DNA of 64,000 nucleotides from Maribellus sp. YY47 (GTDB taxonomy: Bacteria; Bacteroidota; Bacteroidia; Bacteroidales; Prolixibacteraceae): positions 62,001 through 126,000 of the forward strand of contig NZ_JALGYW010000008.1 of NCBI RefSeq assembly GCF_023111095.1, read 5' to 3'. Made by a program: the position numbers and the translations under genes. Shown piece by piece: positions 13,347 to 22,284 of this stretch (within the stretch, counting starts at the first letter, position 1; every line of letters starts with the position of its first letter). Under the pieces are notes generated by a model, which did no database searches, was not told the DNA's origin, and saw only the letters and a program-made list of their open reading frames with translations.

Positions 13347-14411
13347 TTAATTTTTTTCGATCCAGTGTGCAATCCAGTCGCCCACCTGCGAAGTTTTGTA
13401 AGCCGGCCCTTCAGCAATGTCTTCGGTAACCAAGCCTTCTTCCATGGAAGCAGCAACAGCGTCGCGGATCAGCTTCCCTTCTTCCTGCAGGTTAAAAGCA
13501 TATTCAAACATCATGGCAGCAGAAAGGATGGTGGCAATGGGGTTGGCAATGTCTTTCCCGGCAGCCTGCGGATACGAACCATGGATGGGTTCAAAAACCG
13601 AAGTGTGGATACCAACAGATGCAGAAGGCAATAGTCCCAGCGAACCGGTGATTACACTTGCTTCGTCGGTAAGGATATCGCCGAACATGTTTTCAGTCAC
13701 CATTACATCGAAATTCTTGGGCCACTGAATAATCTGCATGGCAGCATTATCGACAAACATGTATTCCGTTTTTATATCCGGATAGTTGGGCGCCATTTCC
13801 TGAGCTACTTCACGCCACAAACGCGAGCTTTCCAATACGTTGGCTTTGTCAACAACAGTAAGCTTTTTATTCCGTTTCGCAGCAAATTCGTAACCCAGTT
13901 TTAAAATACGTTCAACTTCTTCACGCGTGTAAATACAAGTGTCGAATGCCGTGTTTCCATCGTCTTTACGGCCTTTTTCGCCAAAATACATTCCACCGGT
14001 TAATTCGCGGATACAAACAAAATCGGCTCCTTCCACCAATTCGCGGCGTAAAGGCGATTTGTGCAACAACGACTCAAATGTTTCTACCGGACGAATATTG
14101 GCATACAAACCCAGTTTTTTACGCATGGCCAGCAGGCCTTGTTCCGGACGTACCGGAGCTTTTGGATTGTTGTCGAACTTCGGATCTCCGATGGCGCCAA
14201 AAAGAACAGCATCCGATTTCATACACAAATCGTGTGTTTCAGCCGGGTAGGGATCGCCTACCTGGTCAATGGCAGCTGCACCAGTCAGTCCGTATTCGTA
14301 TTCGAGTTCGTGATTAAATTTTTGCGCAATTGCTTTCACCGATTTCATCGCCTGTTCTACGATTTCAGGCCCAATCCCGTCTCCGGGAAGTACTGCAATA
14401 TTAATTTTCAT
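13347..14411 (-). CDS. leuB: 3-isopropylmalate dehydrogenase
   Basis: This 354-residue enzyme oxidises and decarboxylates 3-isopropylmalate to 2-ketoisocaproate (leucine step 3), and in citramalate-using organisms also converts 3-methylmalate to 2-ketobutyrate for isoleucine. Family hallmarks are the N-terminal [13 protein letters not shown], the [13 protein letters not shown] loop, [18 protein letters not shown], and the metal- and NAD-binding [23 protein letters not shown] and [18 protein letters not shown]. Length is normal. It is the last gene of the leu operon, 92 bp after the second synthase gene, and ends next to REP-like repeats and a strong terminator. Confidence 0.96.
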
Positions 14412-14502: not shown

Positions 14503-16086
14503 TTATGAAATTGTATTATTTATCTTGTCTAAAACCTCGGGATTGAATTCATTCTCGATGATATTCAACATCCGGATGGTAGCTTTAATAGCCGCAGCAT
14601 TCTGGTCAGGATCCAAACCTTTGGTTTTAAACTCATGCTTGTTCTGCCAGGTAATAACGGTTTCAACCAACGCATCGGTGTGTCCGCCCGGAGGAATGGT
14701 AACTACATAATCCACCAGTTTTGGGAATGATTTGCCCAAGCGCTTGTAAATTTTATGCAGAGCCTTTACAAATGCGTCGTACTGACCGTCGCCATCGCTA
14801 TATTCTTCGTATTCTTTTCCTTCTATTTCGAGGGCCACATTGGCAACCGGCCGAAGCCCCATGGTGTATGTAATCGAGTAGTTTATCACTCTTACCCTTT
14901 GTTCCACCAGGTCGCTGTGAAGCACGTCGGATACGATGTACGGTAAATCATCGTTGGTAATCGATTCTTTGTCGTCGGCCAGTTCGATAATCCGGTTGGT
15001 CACCTTTTTCAGCGATTCTGCATCCAGTTCAATTCCCAGCTCCTCCAGGTTCTTTTTGATGTTGGCCTTGCCCGAGGTTTTTCCGAGCGCATATTGACGA
15101 GTCCTCCCGAAACGTTCCGGTAAAAGATCGTTGAAATACAGGTTGTTTTTACTGTCGCCATCCGCATGAATTCCACTGCACTGTGTAAACACAAACTCCC
15201 CAATCAAAGGTTTATTGGTCGGAATGCGAATACCTGAAAACGATTCCACCAACTTCGAGATTTTATTGAGTTGGGTTTCGTTCACATTGGTGTGCATGTT
15301 CAGGTGATCCTTTATGGTGGCAATGACACTGGAAAGAGGGGCGTTTCCGGCTCTTTCACCCAAACCGTTAACGGTGGTGTGAACGCAACGAATTCCGGCT
15401 TTTAAGGCATGGAAAACATTGGCAATCGCCAAATCATAGTCGTTGTGCGCATGAAAATCAAAATCTACATCCGGGTAATTTTCGATCATCTCTTTGCAAA
15501 AATCATAGGTTTCATCCGGATCAAGGATCCCGAGGGTATCGGGTAACATGATGCGTCCGATTTTTTCCTGTTGCAAAGCGGAAATCATAAAATGTACATA
15601 GTCTTTTGAACTGCGCATTCCGTTCGACCAGTCCTCGAGGTAAACATTTACCCTGATTCCCATCTCTTCGGCATTGGCAATCACTTTGCGCACATCGCTC
15701 AGGTGTTCTTCCGGCGTTTTTCTGAGTTGTTCGGTAACGTGTTTGTACGAACCCTTGCAAAGCAGGTTGATTACTTTACATCCTGCGTCTGCAATCCATT
15801 GAAGCGATACTTTGCCATCAACAAAACCCAGCACCTCAATTTTGTCCAGGTGACCCCTTTCGGCGGCCCATTTCATGACGCGTTGTGTACCTTTGAATTC
15901 ACCTTCCGACACACGTGCCGAGGCAATTTCAATACGGTCCACTTTCACGTCTTCAAGAAGCACCCGGGCAACGCTCAGCTTTTCGTGTTCGCTGAACGAA
16001 ACCCCGGAGGTTTGCTCACCATCACGCAAGGTTGTATCCATTATGATGAGCTGCTTTCCTGAAACTTCCACTGTTTTTCCTGTCAT
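14503..16086 (-). CDS. LeuA-family acyltransferase, possibly citramalate synthase
   Basis: This 527-residue protein of the isopropylmalate/homocitrate/citramalate synthase family has the catalytic TIM barrel ([13 protein letters not shown], residues about 16-28; DFHAHNDYDLA metal site; VNGLGERAGNAPL) and a C-terminal LeuA-type regulatory domain (about 385-525). It is a distant paralogue of the canonical LeuA encoded in the same operon at 18732-20237. It lacks the opening I would expect of the CimA family used in many bacteria, so substrate is open: pyruvate (citramalate, isoleucine route) or 2-ketoisovalerate. The Ile/Leu leader peptide upstream of the operon would fit citramalate synthase. 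It sits between leuD and leuB; a LeuA paralogue in this place is, to my knowledge, a common arrangement in Bacteroidota. Confidence 0.85.
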   Translation of the reverse strand: MTGKTVEVSGKQLIIMDTTLRDGEQTSGVSFSEHEKLSVARVLLEDVKVDRIEIASARVSEGEFKGTQRVMKWAAERGHLDKIEVLGFVDGKVSLQWIADAGCKVINLLCKGSYKHVTEQLRKTPEEHLSDVRKVIANAEEMGIRVNVYLEDWSNGMRSSKDYVHFMISALQQEKIGRIMLPDTLGILDPDETYDFCKEMIENYPDVDFDFHAHNDYDLAIANVFHALKAGIRCVHTTVNGLGERAGNAPLSSVIATIKDHLNMHTNVNETQLNKISKLVESFSGIRIPTNKPLIGEFVFTQCSGIHADGDSKNNLYFNDLLPERFGRTRQYALGKTSGKANIKKNLEELGIELDAESLKKVTNRIIELADDKESITNDDLPYIVSDVLHSDLVEQRVRVINYSITYTMGLRPVANVALEIEGKEYEEYSDGDGQYDAFVKALHKIYKRLGKSFPKLVDYVVTIPPGGHTDALVETVITWQNKHEFKTKGLDPDQNAAAIKATIRMLNIIENEFNPEVLDKINNTIS

Positions 16087-16147: not shown

Positions 16148-16732
16148 TTATCCTTCAAATGCGGCGATCTCGTCTTTCATTGCCACGAGGTAATCGATGT
16201 CGTCCAAACCGTTTTGCAAACAATGTTTTTTGTACGGATTGATTTCAAACTCGGCCGATTCTCCTGTAGCTGTTATTGTAAAAGTTTGTTTTTCGAGATC
16301 CACTTCAAAAGCTGTTGTTGCATCTTTTTCGATCGCATCAAATATTTTCTGAAGGAATTCAGGAGTAACAACAACGGGCAATAGTCCGTTGTTCAGGGCA
16401 TTCCCTTTAAAGATGTCGGCGAAGAAACTGGAAACCACTACGCGGAAACCATAATCGTAAATCGCCCAGGCTGCATGTTCGCGGCTGGAACCACTACCGA
16501 AGTTTTTTCCACCAACCAGTATTTTACCTGAATACTTGGGATTATTAAGCGGAAAATCAGCTTTGGGTGTTCCGTCTTTTTCGTAACGCCAGTCGCGGAA
16601 CAGGTTATCTCCAAATCCTTTGCGTTCCACTGCTTTCAGGAAACGGGCAGGAATAATTTGGTCAGTGTCCACATTTTCGATAGGAAGCGGCACTGCCGGT
16701 GTATTGATTACTGAAAATTTATCGTAAGCCAT
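16148..16732 (-). CDS. leuD: 3-isopropylmalate dehydratase small subunit
   Basis: At 194 residues this is the small (swivel-domain) subunit of isopropylmalate isomerase, which pairs with LeuC. Recognisable features are [20 protein letters not shown] near the N-terminus and the substrate-contacting [45 protein letters not shown]. Length is typical. It is separated from leuC by a 466-bp stretch that holds a four-helix-bundle gene, an unusual interruption of the normally adjacent leuC-leuD pair, and is followed 61 bp later by the second LeuA-like synthase. Confidence 0.96.
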
Positions 16733-16765: not shown

Positions 16766-17152
16766 TCAGAGTTTCTTTTGAAGAGTCAGCCTTGATTTAA
16801 TAAGAATTGAGGCAATTTCATGTGCTTCATTCATTAGCAATTGAGTTTCCTTTTCTTCTGAAAGTTTTTCATCTTTTGAAAATTCCAGCCAGAATTCACT
16901 TTCATCTGCTTCTTCAATCGAAATACTCATTTTTGCAATCACTGTCGGAATCGTTTGTGCCACACAGGAAGCCCTGTAATTTGCCGCAACAGAAGTGGAA
17001 GATCTGATCAACTGATTTTGGACATGTTTGCCAAGCATGTTGCTCGGAAAGCTGAGCGCTAGCTTAACACAATCGTGCGAAAATTTTTTGGTCCGCTTCT
17101 TCATGTATTCCTTAAATTCTGCCAACTCATTCATTTCAACCTGCATTTCCAA
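16766..17152 (-). CDS. Four-helix-bundle protein (23S rRNA-IVS / S23 family)
   Basis: This small 128-residue helical protein has the diagnostic core FPSNMLGKHVQNQLIRSSTSVAANYRASCVAQ (residues about 35-66) and the later SISIEEADESEFWLEF helix. The family was first seen inside 23S rRNA intervening sequences and is widespread as stand-alone genes in Bacteroidota; its cell function is not known, although related folds serve as nucleic-acid-binding accessory proteins. Here the gene splits leuC from leuD, reads in the operon direction, and is flanked on both sides (16733-16765 and 17153-17198) by short low-complexity sequence like that found elsewhere in the window. This suggests it arrived as an insert. 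Confidence 0.85.
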   Translation of the reverse strand: MEMQVEMNELAEFKEYMKKRTKKFSHDCVKLALSFPSNMLGKHVQNQLIRSSTSVAANYRASCVAQTIPTVIAKMSISIEEADESEFWLEFSKDEKLSEEKETQLLMNEAHEIASILIKSRLTLQKKL

Positions 17153-17198: not shown

Positions 17199-18599
17199 TT
17201 ACATCATTTCTCTTGGGTCGGTTACAACTCCGGTAACAGCGGCAGCAGCAGCGGTAAGCGGACTGGCCAGCATGGTTCTGGAGCCCGGTCCCTGGCGACC
17301 TTCAAAATTTCGGTTGGTGGTTGAAACCGCATATTTTCCTTCTGGGATTTTGTCTTCGTTCATGGCCAGACAAGCCGAGCATCCGGGTTGACGTAGTTCG
17401 AACCCTGCAGCTTCCAGAATTTCGGTCAAGCCTTCTTCGCGAATCTGGCTTTCCACCCGTTTTGATCCCGGTACCAACCAGGCATCAACTCCCGGTGCTT
17501 TCTGCTTGCCTTTTACAAATTCGGCAAAAGCTCTAAAGTCTTCAATTCGTCCGTTGGTACAGCTCCCCAGGAAAACATAATCAACCGGTTTGCCTTTCAT
17601 CGAATCACCTTCGTGGTAACCCATGTACTGCAACGATTTGATGTAAGTGGTTTTGTCGGTGCCTTCCATTCCTTCCGAAGTAGGGATGCTTTGCGTTACG
17701 CCAACCCCCATTCCCGGGTTGGTTCCGTAGGTAATCATCGGCTCAATATCGGCTGCATCGTAAACGTATTCTGTGTCGAATACCGCTCCGTCGTCCGATT
17801 TCAGTTCTTTCCATTTCGCAACGGCATTGTCCCATTCTTCACCTTTTGGTGCAAACTGACGGCCTTTTACATACGCAAAAGTAGTTTCGTCGGGCGCAAT
17901 CATACCGCCGCGGGCGCCACTTTCAATACTCAGGTTACAAAGGGTCATACGACCTTCCATGCTCAAGCCGGTAATGGCCGAACCCGCGTATTCAATAAAG
18001 TGACCGGTACCACCGCTGGTCGAAATTTTTGAAATGATGTAAAGCGCAATGTCTTTTGCTGTTACTCCTTTGCTCAATTCACCATTAACAGTGATGCGCA
18101 TTTTCTTGGGTTTCGGCTGCATAATACATTGACTGGCAAATACCATTTCAACTTCACTTGTTCCGATACCAAAGGCAATGGCGCCAAAAGCTCCGTGAGT
18201 GGAAGTGTGGCTGTCGCCGCAAACAATGGTCATTCCGGGTTGGGTAAGCCCCATTTCCGGGCCAATGATGTGAACGATACCGTGTCCTTCCGACTGCAAA
18301 TCGTGGTAAACAATGCCATGTTCTGCGCAGTTCTGTTTCAGCTTTTCAACCTGGTTACGCGACAATTCATCTTTAATCGAAAGATGCTGATCCTGTGTAG
18401 GAACGTTATGGTCGGGTGTAGCTGTGGTTTTGTCGGGACGGAAAACTTTCAGCCCACGGTTTTTTAATCCTAAAAATGCTACCGGACTGGTAACTTCGTG
18501 GATCAGGTGACGGTCGATGTACAATACATTTGGACCGCCTTCGACCTTCTTCACCACGTGTGCGTCCCAAATTTTATCAAATAATGTTTTTGCTTCCAT
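17199..18599 (-). CDS. leuC: 3-isopropylmalate dehydratase large subunit
   Basis: This 466-residue aconitase-family protein is the catalytic large subunit that isomerises 2-isopropylmalate to 3-isopropylmalate. The [4Fe-4S] ligands are visible in FLGSCTNGR and [10 protein letters not shown]; other hallmarks are [42 protein letters not shown] and the C-terminal [22 protein letters not shown]. It is transcribed after leuA across a 132-bp low-complexity spacer. Its partner leuD is not immediately adjacent because of the inserted four-helix-bundle gene. Confidence 0.96.
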
Positions 18600-18731: not shown

Positions 18732-20237
18732 TTATTCTCCTACCGGCAATTTATTGATGGCATCAAGGAAAGCTTCCACCGAAGCGGTAATAATGTCGGT
18801 ATGCGCTCCAAAACCGTGATAGATAGAGTCCTGGTAGTCCACCTGCATGTGCACTTTACCAATGTCGTCGCTACCGCGGGTGATGGCCTGTACCAGGAAT
18901 TCTTCGATCACTACCTGGCGGTGAATGATTTTCTTCACGGCTGAAATAGCTGCATCAACCGGACCGTTTCCTGCCGAGGTGGCATCGAATTTCTCACCGG
19001 CAATATCCAAAACTACTGATGCCATTGGTTTCAGGCTTTTGCCGGAAATCACCTGCAGGTAATTCAGCTTGATTCGGTGTTCTTTGCGGGTGGCATCTCC
19101 AACCAGCAAAGCGATATCGTCATCACGGACGTCTTTTTTCTTATCCGCCAGTTTCAGGAACTCTTCGTATACTTCGTCCAGTTTTTCCTTGCTCAACTGG
19201 AAGCCCATCAGTTCAAGGCGGTGTTTCAATGCTGCACGACCACTTCTTGCTGTCAACAGAATTGCCGATTCGTTGATGCCCACATCGGTCGGATCCATGA
19301 TCTCGTAATTCTCACGGTTTTTCAACACGCCGTCCTGGTGGATTCCCGATGAATGCGCGAATGCATTTCTCCCCACTACTGCTTTGTTGGGTTGAACAGG
19401 CATGTTCATCAAGGTTGAAACCAAACGGCTGGTCTGGTAAATTTGTTTGGTGTTTACCCCTGTGTCAATTTGCAGCGCCTGGTAATGCGTCTTCAGGGTC
19501 ATTACCACTTCTTCCAGCGACGTATTACCGGCACGCTCGCCGATACCGTTAATGGTAACCTCTGCCTGACGGGCACCGTTTATAATCCCCGAAATGGTGT
19601 TGGCTGTTGCCATGCCCAAATCGTTGTGGCAGTGTGTAGAAATAATTGCTTTGTGAATGTTGGGTACGTTGTCGACCAGGTATTTGATTTTTGCCCCAAA
19701 ATCGTGCGGCAAGGTGTATCCGGTGGTATCCGGAATATTTACAACGGTTGCACCGGCTTTAATAACGGCTTCAATTACACGGGCCAGGTATTCGTTGCCT
19801 GTACGGCCTGCATCTTCGGCATAAAACTCTACATCTTCGACGTATTTTTTGGCATATTTAACCGCCTCAACCGCACGTTCGATGATGGCATCGGGGTTGG
19901 AGTTGAGTTTATGGTAAATATGAAAATCTGATGTTCCGATTCCGGTATGGATACGACCTTTTTTAGCGTATTTTAGGGATTCAGCTGCAACATCAATATC
20001 TTTCTGTACTGCGCGGGTAAGGGCACAAATGGTTGGCCAGGTAACCGCTTTTGAAATCTCAACTACCGATTCGAAATCGCCGGGGCTGGAAATAGGGAAT
20101 CCGGCTTCAATTACGTCAACGCCTAATTCCTGCAATGCTTTGGCAACTTCAATCTTTTCTACCGTATTCAACTGACACCCCGGGACCTGTTCGCCGTCCC
20201 TCAGGGTTGTGTCGAAAATGTACAGTCTGTCGCTCAT
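18732..20237 (-). CDS. leuA: 2-isopropylmalate synthase
   Basis: At 501 residues this is canonical LeuA, which condenses 2-ketoisovalerate with acetyl-CoA in the first leucine-specific step. The barrel shows [32 protein letters not shown] (metal-binding HxH) and [19 protein letters not shown]; the C-terminal allosteric leucine-binding domain (about 380-500) includes a [12 protein letters not shown] stretch. It is the first structural gene of the operon, about 120 bp downstream of an attenuator terminator, so expression is probably controlled by leader-peptide translation as well as by leucine feedback. Confidence 0.96.
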
Positions 20238-20261: not shown

Positions 20262-20359
20262 TTCCTTTTCTTTAGCTGCAAGTCTCAAGCTTCAAACTAC
20301 AAGTTTTTTAATCTTCCATCTTCTATCTTCTGACTTCCAACTTTCATCTTTCAATCATC
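20262..20359. repeat. Low-complexity spacer upstream of leuA
   Basis: Between the attenuator and the leuA start, pyrimidine-rich words (TTCCATCTTCTATCTTC, CTTTCATCTTTCAATC, AGCTGCAAGTCTCAAG) repeat with variation. Together with the spacer at 18600-18731 it brackets leuA on both sides. Confidence 0.5.
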
Positions 20360-20394
20360 AAAAAAGCCATCCTCTTATTTGAGAATGGCTTTTA
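20360..20394 (-). terminator. Attenuator terminator of the leu operon
   Basis: On the minus strand AAAAGCCATTCTC pairs with GAGGATGGCTTTT over a six-base loop (13 pairs, one G-U) and is followed by TTTTTT-type sequence. It lies 33 bp after the stop of an Ile/Leu-rich leader peptide. The 5' arm contains CCATTCTC, which can pair instead with GAGAATGG at 20421-20428, beginning inside the leader stop codon, so an antiterminator is available. Confidence 0.85.
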
Positions 20395-20420
20395 TTTATC
20401 CAATATCGTTAATCAACATA

Positions 20421-20428
20421 CCATTCTC
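20421..20428 (-). promoter_or_regulatory. Antiterminator 5' arm
   Basis: Minus-strand GAGAATGG is exactly complementary to CCATTCTC in the 5' arm of the attenuator terminator. Its first two bases belong to the TGA stop of the leader peptide. A ribosome stalled on the Ile/Leu codons upstream would leave this arm free to form the antiterminator; a ribosome reaching the stop would cover it and allow termination. Confidence 0.75.
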
Positions 20429-20492
20429 ATTTCTGTCTTGTTAGAAGAAGAATACCAAGGAGAATGTTAATAATGGAAATGTTGAATTTCAT
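20427..20492 (-). CDS. leu operon leader peptide (21 residues)
   Basis: This short minus-strand ORF starts with ATG at 20492 and ends with TGA at 20427-20429. The peptide begins MKFN, continues ISIINILLGILLL and ends TRQK. Ten of its 21 residues are isoleucine (5) or leucine (5), clustered in residues 5-17, and none is valine. It lies directly upstream of mutually exclusive antiterminator and terminator hairpins and of leuA. This is the layout of ribosome-mediated attenuation known for branched-chain amino-acid operons of enterobacteria. The A-rich sequence before the ATG is a usual weak Bacteroidota ribosome-binding site. Confidence 0.85.
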   Translation of the reverse strand: MKFNISIINILLGILLLTRQK

Positions 20493-20509
20493 GTCGTTTT
20501 CTTACGATT

Positions 20510-20525
20510 TCATGCAAATATCAAA
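20510..20525 (-). promoter_or_regulatory. Weak candidate promoter of the leu leader
   Basis: Minus-strand GATATTTG matches the Bacteroidota -7 consensus TAnnTTTG except at the first base. It would start transcription about 15 bp before the leader ATG. No clear -33 box is seen, so this is only the best local candidate. Confidence 0.3.
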
Positions 20526-20679
20526 AAAAATATTTAAAATGAAAATAAATGACGCTTTTTTATGCGAAAAGTTAATATTCATACTTTATAATCTGATTTT
20601 GAGTATGTGATTAATAAAAAAAGACAGGTATTCCGATCAAAGAGGCCGGATTACTTTTTGAATAGCACTTTCCCGTTTA

Positions 20680-22284
20680 TTATTCAACTTTGGAGGGTGA
20701 TTTTGCTTTTCCCTTTTCAGATTCTTCGGGTGCTGATTCTTTCTTTTCGGTTTTGCGAAATATATCGTCTTTTGAAACTGGCCTTAATTCAATCTGCCAG
20801 TTAAAATTGGAGAGTTTCTTGTTGTTATCTGTCACTTTCTCAAGCGGATTCAGTTCGCCTTCGGGTTTTTTTTGAAAAGCAATTTTATGAATTTTACCGT
20901 CCTGAAAACGAATGGAAATATTACTGCTTTCGGCGCGGTTTAATCCTATAATTTCTTCTTTTTCGCGGGCATAATACAGCGTTTGTCCGTTGCCATCCAC
21001 ATCGATGTAATCGAGCTTTCCGTTTTTGACATAACCCACCATGTTTTTTCCCTTGATCTGGTCGAACATGCCGGTGTCCTGTTCCGAGATGATAAAGCTA
21101 TTGTTGTACAGGCGTAACTCGTTGGGCGCATTGCTGTGTTGTATCATTTTAATATTCTCGGCGCTTAATTGCTGAATCCCCGACCATAATACCGGATTGA
21201 CGTGCAGTTCCACAACAGAATCTTTGGTGAAATAGATCATTGAATCGCACACACCCTGGATATCGCTACGGTAAAAACGCACACCGTAATAGGCATTTAC
21301 GATGTTTTCGCCTTCAATGGTGTCGGGCATGGTGCGCAGTGTATCGGCATGCAAATACAAACTGTCGGTTTGGTTGTAGGAAATAAAAACGGCAGAATCG
21401 GTGACGAGCGCCATTTCGGTTTGTTCGTTGTAATCCACCTTTTGTCCCTGAACAATGCTGCGGTTTTCATAGTCTTCGAGAAATACATTTCCCAACGCGT
21501 GCGTATCCCCAGTTGTTTTGTTAAAGGTGATTTGTTCGGCTTTCAAAAATTGAGTGTCGTTGTATATTCTCGGCGCTTTATTCAGGTCGGCATCTCCGGT
21601 AAGCGTGTTGTACCATCCTTCTTCAGCGTATAAAGTGTTGGATGAATCGCGTATGGTTGTGGCCGAAGAAAAATAAATAATTTCGGTTTTGGTGTTGTAT
21701 TTTATGTCTTCGCTATTCAGTGTGTATTTATCGTTAAAACCAACTACGCTATCCGTGAAGTGAACCATATCTTCATTCAAATAATACTGGCCTACTTTGC
21801 TGGTCAGCGTGTTGGTACTGTCCACAATCTTTCCCCCACAATCATAATAGCCAATATTGAGGTTCATATCGTAATCCAGCGTATCGGAGTACAAGGTGAT
21901 CTCTTTTTTTTCGAGTCTGACATCATGAATGGCCTGGGCAAAGCTTCTGTCTCCATCGTAAAAAATTTTACGGGCATAAAGATGGAGTGTGTCAGCCTGA
22001 TTGATATGAACATGGCCAAATGCATCCACCCGATTCGATCCTTCGTAGGTGTATGCACTGTCGCAATACATCAGAATGTTTTCATGTTTAATAATAACAT
22101 TGTCGAGCCAGCGCTGCGCATTGGCAATGGCAGTGCTTGTTTCGAGCGAGCCTGCATTCAGAATGTCGACTCTCTTTTTTTCCTGTGCCGGTGTAATAAC
22201 CGTAATAAACATCAATCCTGCCAGAAGAAGGAAAGCTAATCCCGGCTTTTGAGTCGGTGTACTATTAAAACGAAGTTGTTGCAT
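20680..22284 (-). CDS. OstA-like (LptA/LptD N-terminal domain) exported protein
   Basis: This 534-residue protein has an N-terminal signal (about residues 10-34, LAFLLLAGLMFITVITPAQ) and a long repetitive beta-rich region in which lines such as LYARKIFYDGDRSFAQAIHDVRLEKKEITLYSDTLDYD recur, typical of the OstA/LptA beta-jellyroll. The C-terminus is charged and disordered (EKKESAPEESEKGKAKSPSK). OstA-domain proteins carry lipopolysaccharide or lipooligosaccharide through the periplasm. The gene overlaps the stop of the MoxR gene by one base (TAATG), so they are translationally coupled, and it is the last gene of the block. Confidence 0.82.
   Translation of the reverse strand: MQQLRFNSTPTQKPGLAFLLLAGLMFITVITPAQEKKRVDILNAGSLETSTAIANAQRWLDNVIIKHENILMYCDSAYTYEGSNRVDAFGHVHINQADTLHLYARKIFYDGDRSFAQAIHDVRLEKKEITLYSDTLDYDMNLNIGYYDCGGKIVDSTNTLTSKVGQYYLNEDMVHFTDSVVGFNDKYTLNSEDIKYNTKTEIIYFSSATTIRDSSNTLYAEEGWYNTLTGDADLNKAPRIYNDTQFLKAEQITFNKTTGDTHALGNVFLEDYENRSIVQGQKVDYNEQTEMALVTDSAVFISYNQTDSLYLHADTLRTMPDTIEGENIVNAYYGVRFYRSDIQGVCDSMIYFTKDSVVELHVNPVLWSGIQQLSAENIKMIQHSNAPNELRLYNNSFIISEQDTGMFDQIKGKNMVGYVKNGKLDYIDVDGNGQTLYYAREKEEIIGLNRAESSNISIRFQDGKIHKIAFQKKPEGELNPLEKVTDNNKKLSNFNWQIELRPVSKDDIFRKTEKKESAPEESEKGKAKSPSKVE

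Follow-up and report, generated by a model that had tools for sequence, protein, structure and literature searches.

Upstream of leuA in Maribellus sp. YY47, a short ORF rich in isoleucine and leucine codons is followed by a hairpin with a T run, which raises the question of whether the two form a ribosome-mediated transcription attenuator and, if so, which amino acids the operon downstream would answer to. The locus was analysed within a window of 64 kb (the whole stretch of DNA under study, G000:C54:62001-126000, from a genome of 5.04 Mb) and in near and distant relatives. From the sequences compared, we hold it very probable that a ribosome-mediated attenuator with dual Ile/Leu specificity precedes leuA-leuC-leuD-cimA-leuB.

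The leu operon and the elements of its leader

The genes of the operon and of its interior were assigned as follows.

18732-20237, minus strand: leuA, 2-isopropylmalate synthase (NF002086, 747 bits; TIGR00973, 687 bits; both above cut-off)
17199-18599, minus strand: leuC, isopropylmalate dehydratase large subunit (TIGR00170, 662.5 bits, above cut-off)
16766-17152, minus strand: four-helix-bundle protein, between leuC and leuD (TIGR02436, 69 bits, above cut-off)
16148-16732, minus strand: leuD, isopropylmalate dehydratase small subunit (TIGR00171, 193 bits, above cut-off)
14503-16086, minus strand: cimA-like, citramalate synthase of the Leptospira type (NF042433, 669.9 bits, cut-off 950)
13347-14411, minus strand: leuB, 3-isopropylmalate dehydrogenase (TIGR00169, 459 bits, above cut-off)

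The closest named relatives of LeuA come mostly from Prolixibacteraceae, and also include Draconibacterium orientale (89% identity) and one Odoribacter. The product of 14503-16086 reaches only 348 bits with the best LeuA model, and among solved structures it matches Leptospira citramalate synthase 3ble with 407 bits, the next structure giving 200; we call it CimA-like because its score stays below the curated cut-off of NF042433, although the nearest solved structure is a citramalate synthase. LeuCD and LeuB are able to act after either synthase, LeuA or CimA, and the operon therefore plausibly serves isoleucine as well as leucine. The same genome also encodes an IlvA-like protein of full length, which scores 337 bits against a cut-off of 378.75, so that CimA may not be the sole source of 2-oxobutyrate.

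The elements that precede leuA, listed in the direction of transcription, are these.

20514-20545, minus strand: promoter-like region, with TTTTCATTTT (20545-20536) and GATATTTGC (20522-20514)
20427-20492, minus strand: leader peptide ORF MKFNISIINILLGILLLTRQK, ATG to TGA, 21 codons with 5 Ile, 5 Leu and 0 Val
20472-20485, minus strand: region 1, TCAACAT (20485-20479) and CCATT (20476-20472) inside the leader; pairs with region 2 and the sequence after it
20421-20428, minus strand: region 2, the antiterminator arm GAGAATGG, whose first base is the second of the stop codon TGA (20429-20427)
20381-20388, minus strand: region 3, CCATTCTC, exact complement of GAGAATGG and common to the 2:3 antiterminator and the 3:4 terminator
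20360-20393, minus strand: intrinsic terminator, 13-bp stem of 20393-20381 with 20374-20362, T run 20365-20360

Re-reading the sequence bore out the original prediction part by part: a 21-codon minus-strand ORF with all of its Ile codons (5, 7, 8, 10 and 14) and Leu codons (11, 12, 15, 16 and 17) within residues 5-17, an antiterminator arm that begins in the leader stop codon, the exact complementarity of that arm to a segment of the terminator, a 13-bp terminator ending in a T run, and leuA some 120 bp downstream, the distance from T run to leuA start (20237) being 122 nt. Its broader claim, that all sequence parts of ribosome-mediated attenuation are present, likewise appears correct, as ORF, terminator and a mutually exclusive antiterminator arm were all found. 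Missing from it was a further helix, in which the leader arms CCATT and TCAACAT pair with the antiterminator region (helix 1:2), and which is extended by ATGTTGA (20419-20413) just past region 2. When 20355-20500 was folded as RNA, this helix was seen, with TCAACAT and CCATT of the leader facing AATGG and ATGTTGA, which lie at the stop codon and beyond it; the energy of the fold was -34.4 kcal/mol, as against -22.0 ± 3.2 for shuffled sequences (z = -3.85), none of 200 shuffles being as low.

The promoter-like TTTTCATTTT and GATATTTGC resemble the Bacteroidota -33/-7 promoter consensus. TTTTCATTTT is present in 32 of the 36 loci of the alignment described below, and [CG]ATATTTGC in 34 of them, its end lying 16-24 nt upstream of the leader start codon.

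In order to gauge chance, both strands of the window were scanned for a strong stem with a T run, preceded by a 12-32-residue ORF in which Ile/Leu/Val make up 45% or more and whose stop codon lies no more than 60 nt upstream. Seven terminator-like sites were found, and exactly one full match, the leu leader site; 60 dinucleotide shuffles, again on both strands, averaged 0.03 matches each, never with an antiterminator that reached 8 bp. The combination of leader, antiterminator and terminator is not due to chance.

Conservation within the genus and a model of the switch

The original prediction was to be abandoned if close relatives lacked the leader or the alternative pairing. The same-genus sample comprised 37 genomes including Maribellus sp. 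YY47, 35 of which have a readable leuA start, and leader, antiterminator and terminator were all present in 32 of these 35, so that the prediction passed. The remaining loci are L113, where a contig end cuts the leader and the visible remainder is intact; L023, where the T run is interrupted; and L031, where leader and antiterminator are lost. The last belongs to a genome of 2.2 Mb (G023), in which a remnant of the terminator survives some 165-300 nt before leuA and the switch seems to have decayed naturally.

An alignment of 36 loci (A1) was built from the 32 and four named records, chosen for a terminator and a complement of at least 6 bp; L023, L031 and L113 were left out, as were L032 and L037 (repeat loci of G022 and G015) and L122 (another family). 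Region 3, CCATTCTC, is invariant in all 36 sequences. Every sequence forms the 12 terminator pairs (100% of 408 cells), and 35 of them form all nine antiterminator pairs, the remaining one having a single gap (100% of 305 cells); these figures partly reflect selection because the rows had been chosen for terminator and complement. Both helices vary almost only by G-U changes, and their covariation therefore says little within the genus. Covariation of both had been proposed as a check on the prediction; among the A1 sequences a single terminator pair changes on both sides, and no two-sided change was seen in the antiterminator helix.

Helix 1:2 was more informative. In A1, 91.6% of its cells are paired, as against 28-60% in slid controls; 4 of its 12 pairs have two-sided changes, a count reached by 2 of 500 shuffles, and there are 10 two-sided cells, a number that none of 500 shuffles equalled, in controls that ignore relatedness. 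The predicted helix 1:2 thus carries compensatory changes.

The leader frame is kept in the relatives: four rows share a common 9-nt in-frame gap, and single-base gaps occur near the start (L001, L003 and L004) or before the stop (L027 and L033), where the start or stop codon is shifted. Seven leader positions surrounding an invariant Gly have T as second codon base in 36 of 36 sequences; Ile and Leu interchange there, and Val occupies only 1 of 252 cells. A single transition turns ATT into GTT, so the scarcity of Val looks like selection rather than missing opportunity, and we regard the putative leader ORF as being under coding constraint for Ile/Leu codons. The duplex of antiterminator and terminator was compared separately with shuffled leader ends, in loci selected for leader and terminator but not for the antiterminator; the native duplex was the better one at P<=0.05 in 33 of the 36 close loci.

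From this arrangement we infer stalling, termination, the regulatory response and isoleucine sensing along the following lines. Transcription would start shortly upstream of the leader ORF, as the promoter-like element suggests. With Ile- and Leu-tRNAs charged, the ribosome would reach the stop codon and mask GAGAATGG; CCATTCTC would then pair with its downstream arm, and the terminator would halt transcription before leuA. When isoleucine or leucine is scarce, the ribosome would stall at an Ile or Leu codon and leave GAGAATGG exposed to pair with CCATTCTC, so that no terminator could form and the operon would be transcribed. Isoleucine would count as a signal because the CimA-like enzyme probably makes this an isoleucine operon too.

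These states were modelled in 35 of the 36 A1 sequences by masking 29 nt around the ribosome A site, in transcripts that end at the terminator loop. The mean probability of the 2:3 antiterminator was 0.89 with the ribosome on Ile/Leu codons and 0.00 with the ribosome on the stop codon, the latter because the antiterminator starts in the stop codon itself. In the Maribellus sequence a stall anywhere from codon 2 to codon 18 brought the antiterminator near 1; in some relatives, L020, L026 and L116 among them, a ribosome on the last Leu codons left it below 0.3. Without a ribosome the antiterminator had a mean of 0.42, mixed across sequences, and 0.88 in Maribellus, where helix 1:2, though conserved and covarying, does not dominate; given this mixed result, termination in untranslated transcripts is uncertain in this species and that classical branch is unsupported by the model. 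At equilibrium, the complete leader without a ribosome favoured the terminator (0.95), so that the switch must rely on timing during transcription.

The hairpin lies downstream of an LptA-like gene (20680-22284) on the same strand, and it might be the plain 3' terminator of that gene, with the short ORF arising by chance. We consider this most improbable: the hairpin stands about 290 nt beyond the LptA-like stop and behind the conserved promoter-like element, leader ORF and antiterminator are conserved together with it upstream of leuA, and the shuffled windows yielded no match with an antiterminator of comparable length. A terminator with an alternative pairing would also be compatible with a T-box, a riboswitch or a protein-binding leader that controlled the operon, the ORF being incidental. 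Against such a known RNA switch, neither the window nor seven related loci matched any Rfam family, T-boxes and riboswitches included, at the gathering score; a permissive scan around the leader gave matches that were all far below threshold, among them Phe_leader with 16 of 55 bits; and the ORF shows a constraint of its own, to Ile/Leu codons, which leaves this account with very little likelihood. The enterobacterial Leu leader of Rfam, which we take to be RF00512, had no match in the window at gathering score and was absent from the weak matches. The attenuator remains by far the preferred reading.

Distribution across the class and the choice of leader codons

Leader and terminator were sought in distant relatives by a script covering 330 nt upstream of leuA. 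A class-wide sample of 296 genomes yielded 10 matching genomes of the same order, 9 of which have the layout before leuA. It was also found in 6 of 13 same-order genomes of other families from the first search (the script found none in 7), and in 33 of 74 loci from named records beyond the close relatives (none found by the script in 41). The distant set amounted to 48 loci in all, and the script missed at least L050, whose leader lies outside the 330 nt; L056, L057, L070 and L083 have a branched-chain ORF but no T run that could be detected. In 43 of the 48 distant loci the native leader end formed a stronger pairing to the terminator arm than shuffled ends did (P<=0.05). The predicted leu attenuator layout is common in Bacteroidales rather than an isolated case.

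Loci of Bacteroides and Prevotella typically have GCCTTTCTCACTTCC as the terminator arm, and their antiterminator lies within the last leader codons, typically as GGAAGTGAG or GGAAGTGA (Gly-Ser-Glu/Asp codons), with a partner, CTCACTTCC, that extends into the loop. A search for the antiterminator that was limited to the 5' arm of the terminator missed many of these loci, which were found once the loop was added. The position of the antiterminator explains the Gly-Ser-Glu/Asp codons at the leader end, and probably the Val codons there too: 40 of the 46 Val codons in distant leaders lie in the last third, as against 6 among the 376 Ile/Leu/Val codons of the front two thirds.

For the other orders of the class, 19 of the 63 matched genomes were examined, and outside family f31 only L186 had the layout. 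In this locus (G272, outside Bacteroidales), about 75-185 nt upstream of leuA, an ORF MIIKYTISLNRLPLTKTV ends in GTGTGAGAAGGGG, opposite a terminator with CCCTTTCTC; the genome carries a CimA-like gene elsewhere.

Family f31 offers a contrast in codon content. No CimA was found in the 8 of its 13 searched genomes that have leuA (87-100% complete), where the CimA query matched their own LeuA with 132-172 bits and everything else with less than 24 bits, as compared with 687 for the CimA-like gene of G272. Six of the eight have a leucine-rich short ORF before leuA, with a total of 38 Leu, 3 Ile and 1 Val, and two do not. The Ile share is 0 to 0.29 in f31, as against a median of 0.52 (lowest 0.14) in the 48 distant leaders, a comparison that rests for f31 on 6 of 8 loci, one of which (L199) had its leader picked by eye. 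An obvious terminator was seen by eye only in L177 and L201 among the six Leu-dominated ORFs (L177, L178, L198, L199, L200 and L201); since most of them have no clear T-run terminator, their mode of action may differ. As the six loci represent one lineage with few obvious terminators, the contrast is suggestive and not proof.

Within the genomes that carry both, leu and ilv leaders could be compared directly. The ilvD operon of Maribellus sp. YY47 has its own leader (L138, G000:C34), MRLTINILVVLVLILGISERG, whose ATG lies inside a longer TTG-started frame and which holds Ile, Leu and Val codons; it is followed by a terminator, AAGCCTTTCTCAGAACCGGGAAAGGC. Leader and terminator of the ilvD operon also occur in relatives of this genome. 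In L138 the terminator arm CCTTTCTC stands opposite GAGAGGGG at the leader end, the leu equivalents being CCATTCTC and GAGAATGG, and when leu and ilv arms were swapped within a genome the native pairing had the better energy in 25 of 25 genomes (P 1.2e-5, for genomes that are not independent). Across these 25 genomes, the leu leaders hold 134 Ile, 143 Leu and 4 Val among 281 branched-chain codons, whereas the ilv leaders hold 95 Ile, 99 Leu and 91 Val among 285; for Val codons the difference has a Fisher P of 7e-26, relatedness being ignored. Since the ilv genes are needed for three amino acids and the leu-cimA operon for two, the Val codons seem to follow the pathway.

The attenuator could be real and yet sense leucine only, its Ile codons serving as hydrophobic filler in an A+T-rich genome. 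In keeping with this, leuA, leuC, leuD and leuB all serve leucine, Ile and Leu swap at several leader positions, the IlvA-like protein may provide isoleucine separately, and L096 of Phocaeicola plebeius has CimA and nevertheless a Leu-dominated leader (Ile 2, Leu 8). Val would be an equally good filler, however, and is all but absent from the front two thirds of the 48 distant leaders while being frequent in ilv leaders; Bacteroidales loci at 46-59% G+C retain their Ile codons, whereas f31 loci at 42-59% G+C are Leu-dominated; and the first branched-chain codons that a ribosome would meet in the Maribellus leader are Ile. A leucine-only sensor is accordingly unlikely, if less so than the two accounts weighed above, and a dual Ile/Leu sensor remains our preferred reading. 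The suggestion in the original prediction that isoleucine acts as a second signal finds independent support in the CimA-like gene of the operon, in the Val-frequent ilv leaders and in the Leu-dominated leaders of f31, and we infer that the Ile codons of the leader fit the CimA-like gene.

Whether leaders and cimA go together across loci was less clear. A leader is present in 28 of 50 cimA-positive loci and in 1 of 8 loci with leuB directly next (Fisher P 0.052, with relatedness ignored, 16 of 74 loci unresolved and at least L050 missed by the 330-nt scan), and the link between having a leader and having cimA in the operon is no more than suggestive. Individual loci also depart from the pattern: besides L096, Ancylomarina L082 is a counter-example, with an Ile-rich leader and no cimA between leuD and leuB. 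In L102 (Ile 1, Leu 6), as in f31, no CimA was seen in the stretch available. On balance, we lean towards the view that leader codons track the output of the operon, with an Ile/Leu sensor where cimA is present (Bacteroidales), a Leu-dominated leader in f31, and Val codons kept for ilv.

Relation to known leaders

The leu leader of enterobacteria contains a run of four Leu codons. The Maribellus leader is like enterobacterial leuL in that a leader rich in codons for the product precedes leuA and that terminator and antiterminator are mutually exclusive; it is unlike leuL in that Ile equals Leu, the arm common to both helices (CCATTCTC) is short, Rfam gives no match and a cimA-like gene is part of the operon. 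The enterobacterial ilvGMEDA and the Corynebacterium ilvBNC leaders control ilv genes and read valine too. Maribellus differs from both in that its ilv operon has a separate leader of its own with Ile, Leu and Val. What it shares with ilvL (ilvGMEDA) and with the Corynebacterium ilvBNC uORF (PMC10272879) is that one leader reads several branched-chain amino acids.

In the same phylum, data from Flavobacterium psychrophilum are reported to give strong hints of attenuation by leader peptides ahead of amino acid operons (PMC9723704); the section concerned mentions neither a leu leader nor any pairing or codon specificity. The Bacteroides thetaiotaomicron transcriptome is described as having long leaders with short ORFs that recall leader peptides (PMC7366714), and the main text of a 2010 survey of premature terminators contains neither words beginning with bacteroid- nor leuA (PMC2965389). 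Almost no literature was found on Bacteroidetes or Bacteroides together with leader peptides, and none of the titles and abstract openings found names a leu leader in Bacteroidales; the attenuation survey of Lopatovskaya 2010 may list cases from Bacteroidota.

The attenuation mechanism itself is known; its lineage-wide distribution and the match of codons to pathway appear to be new. Comparative, covariation and within-genome evidence here points to classical attenuation as a device in wide use among Bacteroidales, which are prominent in the gut, and dual Ile/Leu control of the leu-cimA operon can now be tested in cultured relatives such as Bacteroides. The data also suggest that leader codons could help to tell the pathway of an ambiguous LeuA-like enzyme (LeuA or CimA). 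If codons do track operon output, the wiring of the pathways could be read from leader peptides throughout the phylum.

The Maribellus genome was also inspected for leaders of other amino acid pathways. No thr leader was recognised before its three aspartokinase genes. Upstream of hisG (L189, G000:C4), a short ORF with HHGHH, MNFRLGHHGHHGSIQPTGRL, is followed by a terminator, GAGGCTTGCC..GGTAAGCCTC, probably a his attenuator. At L195 (G000:C23), three adjacent Trp codons, MRINNNIWWWHSNFLQHS, are found together with a strong terminator, a probable trp attenuator; the ORF precedes a gene for a chorismate-binding enzyme, possibly trpE.
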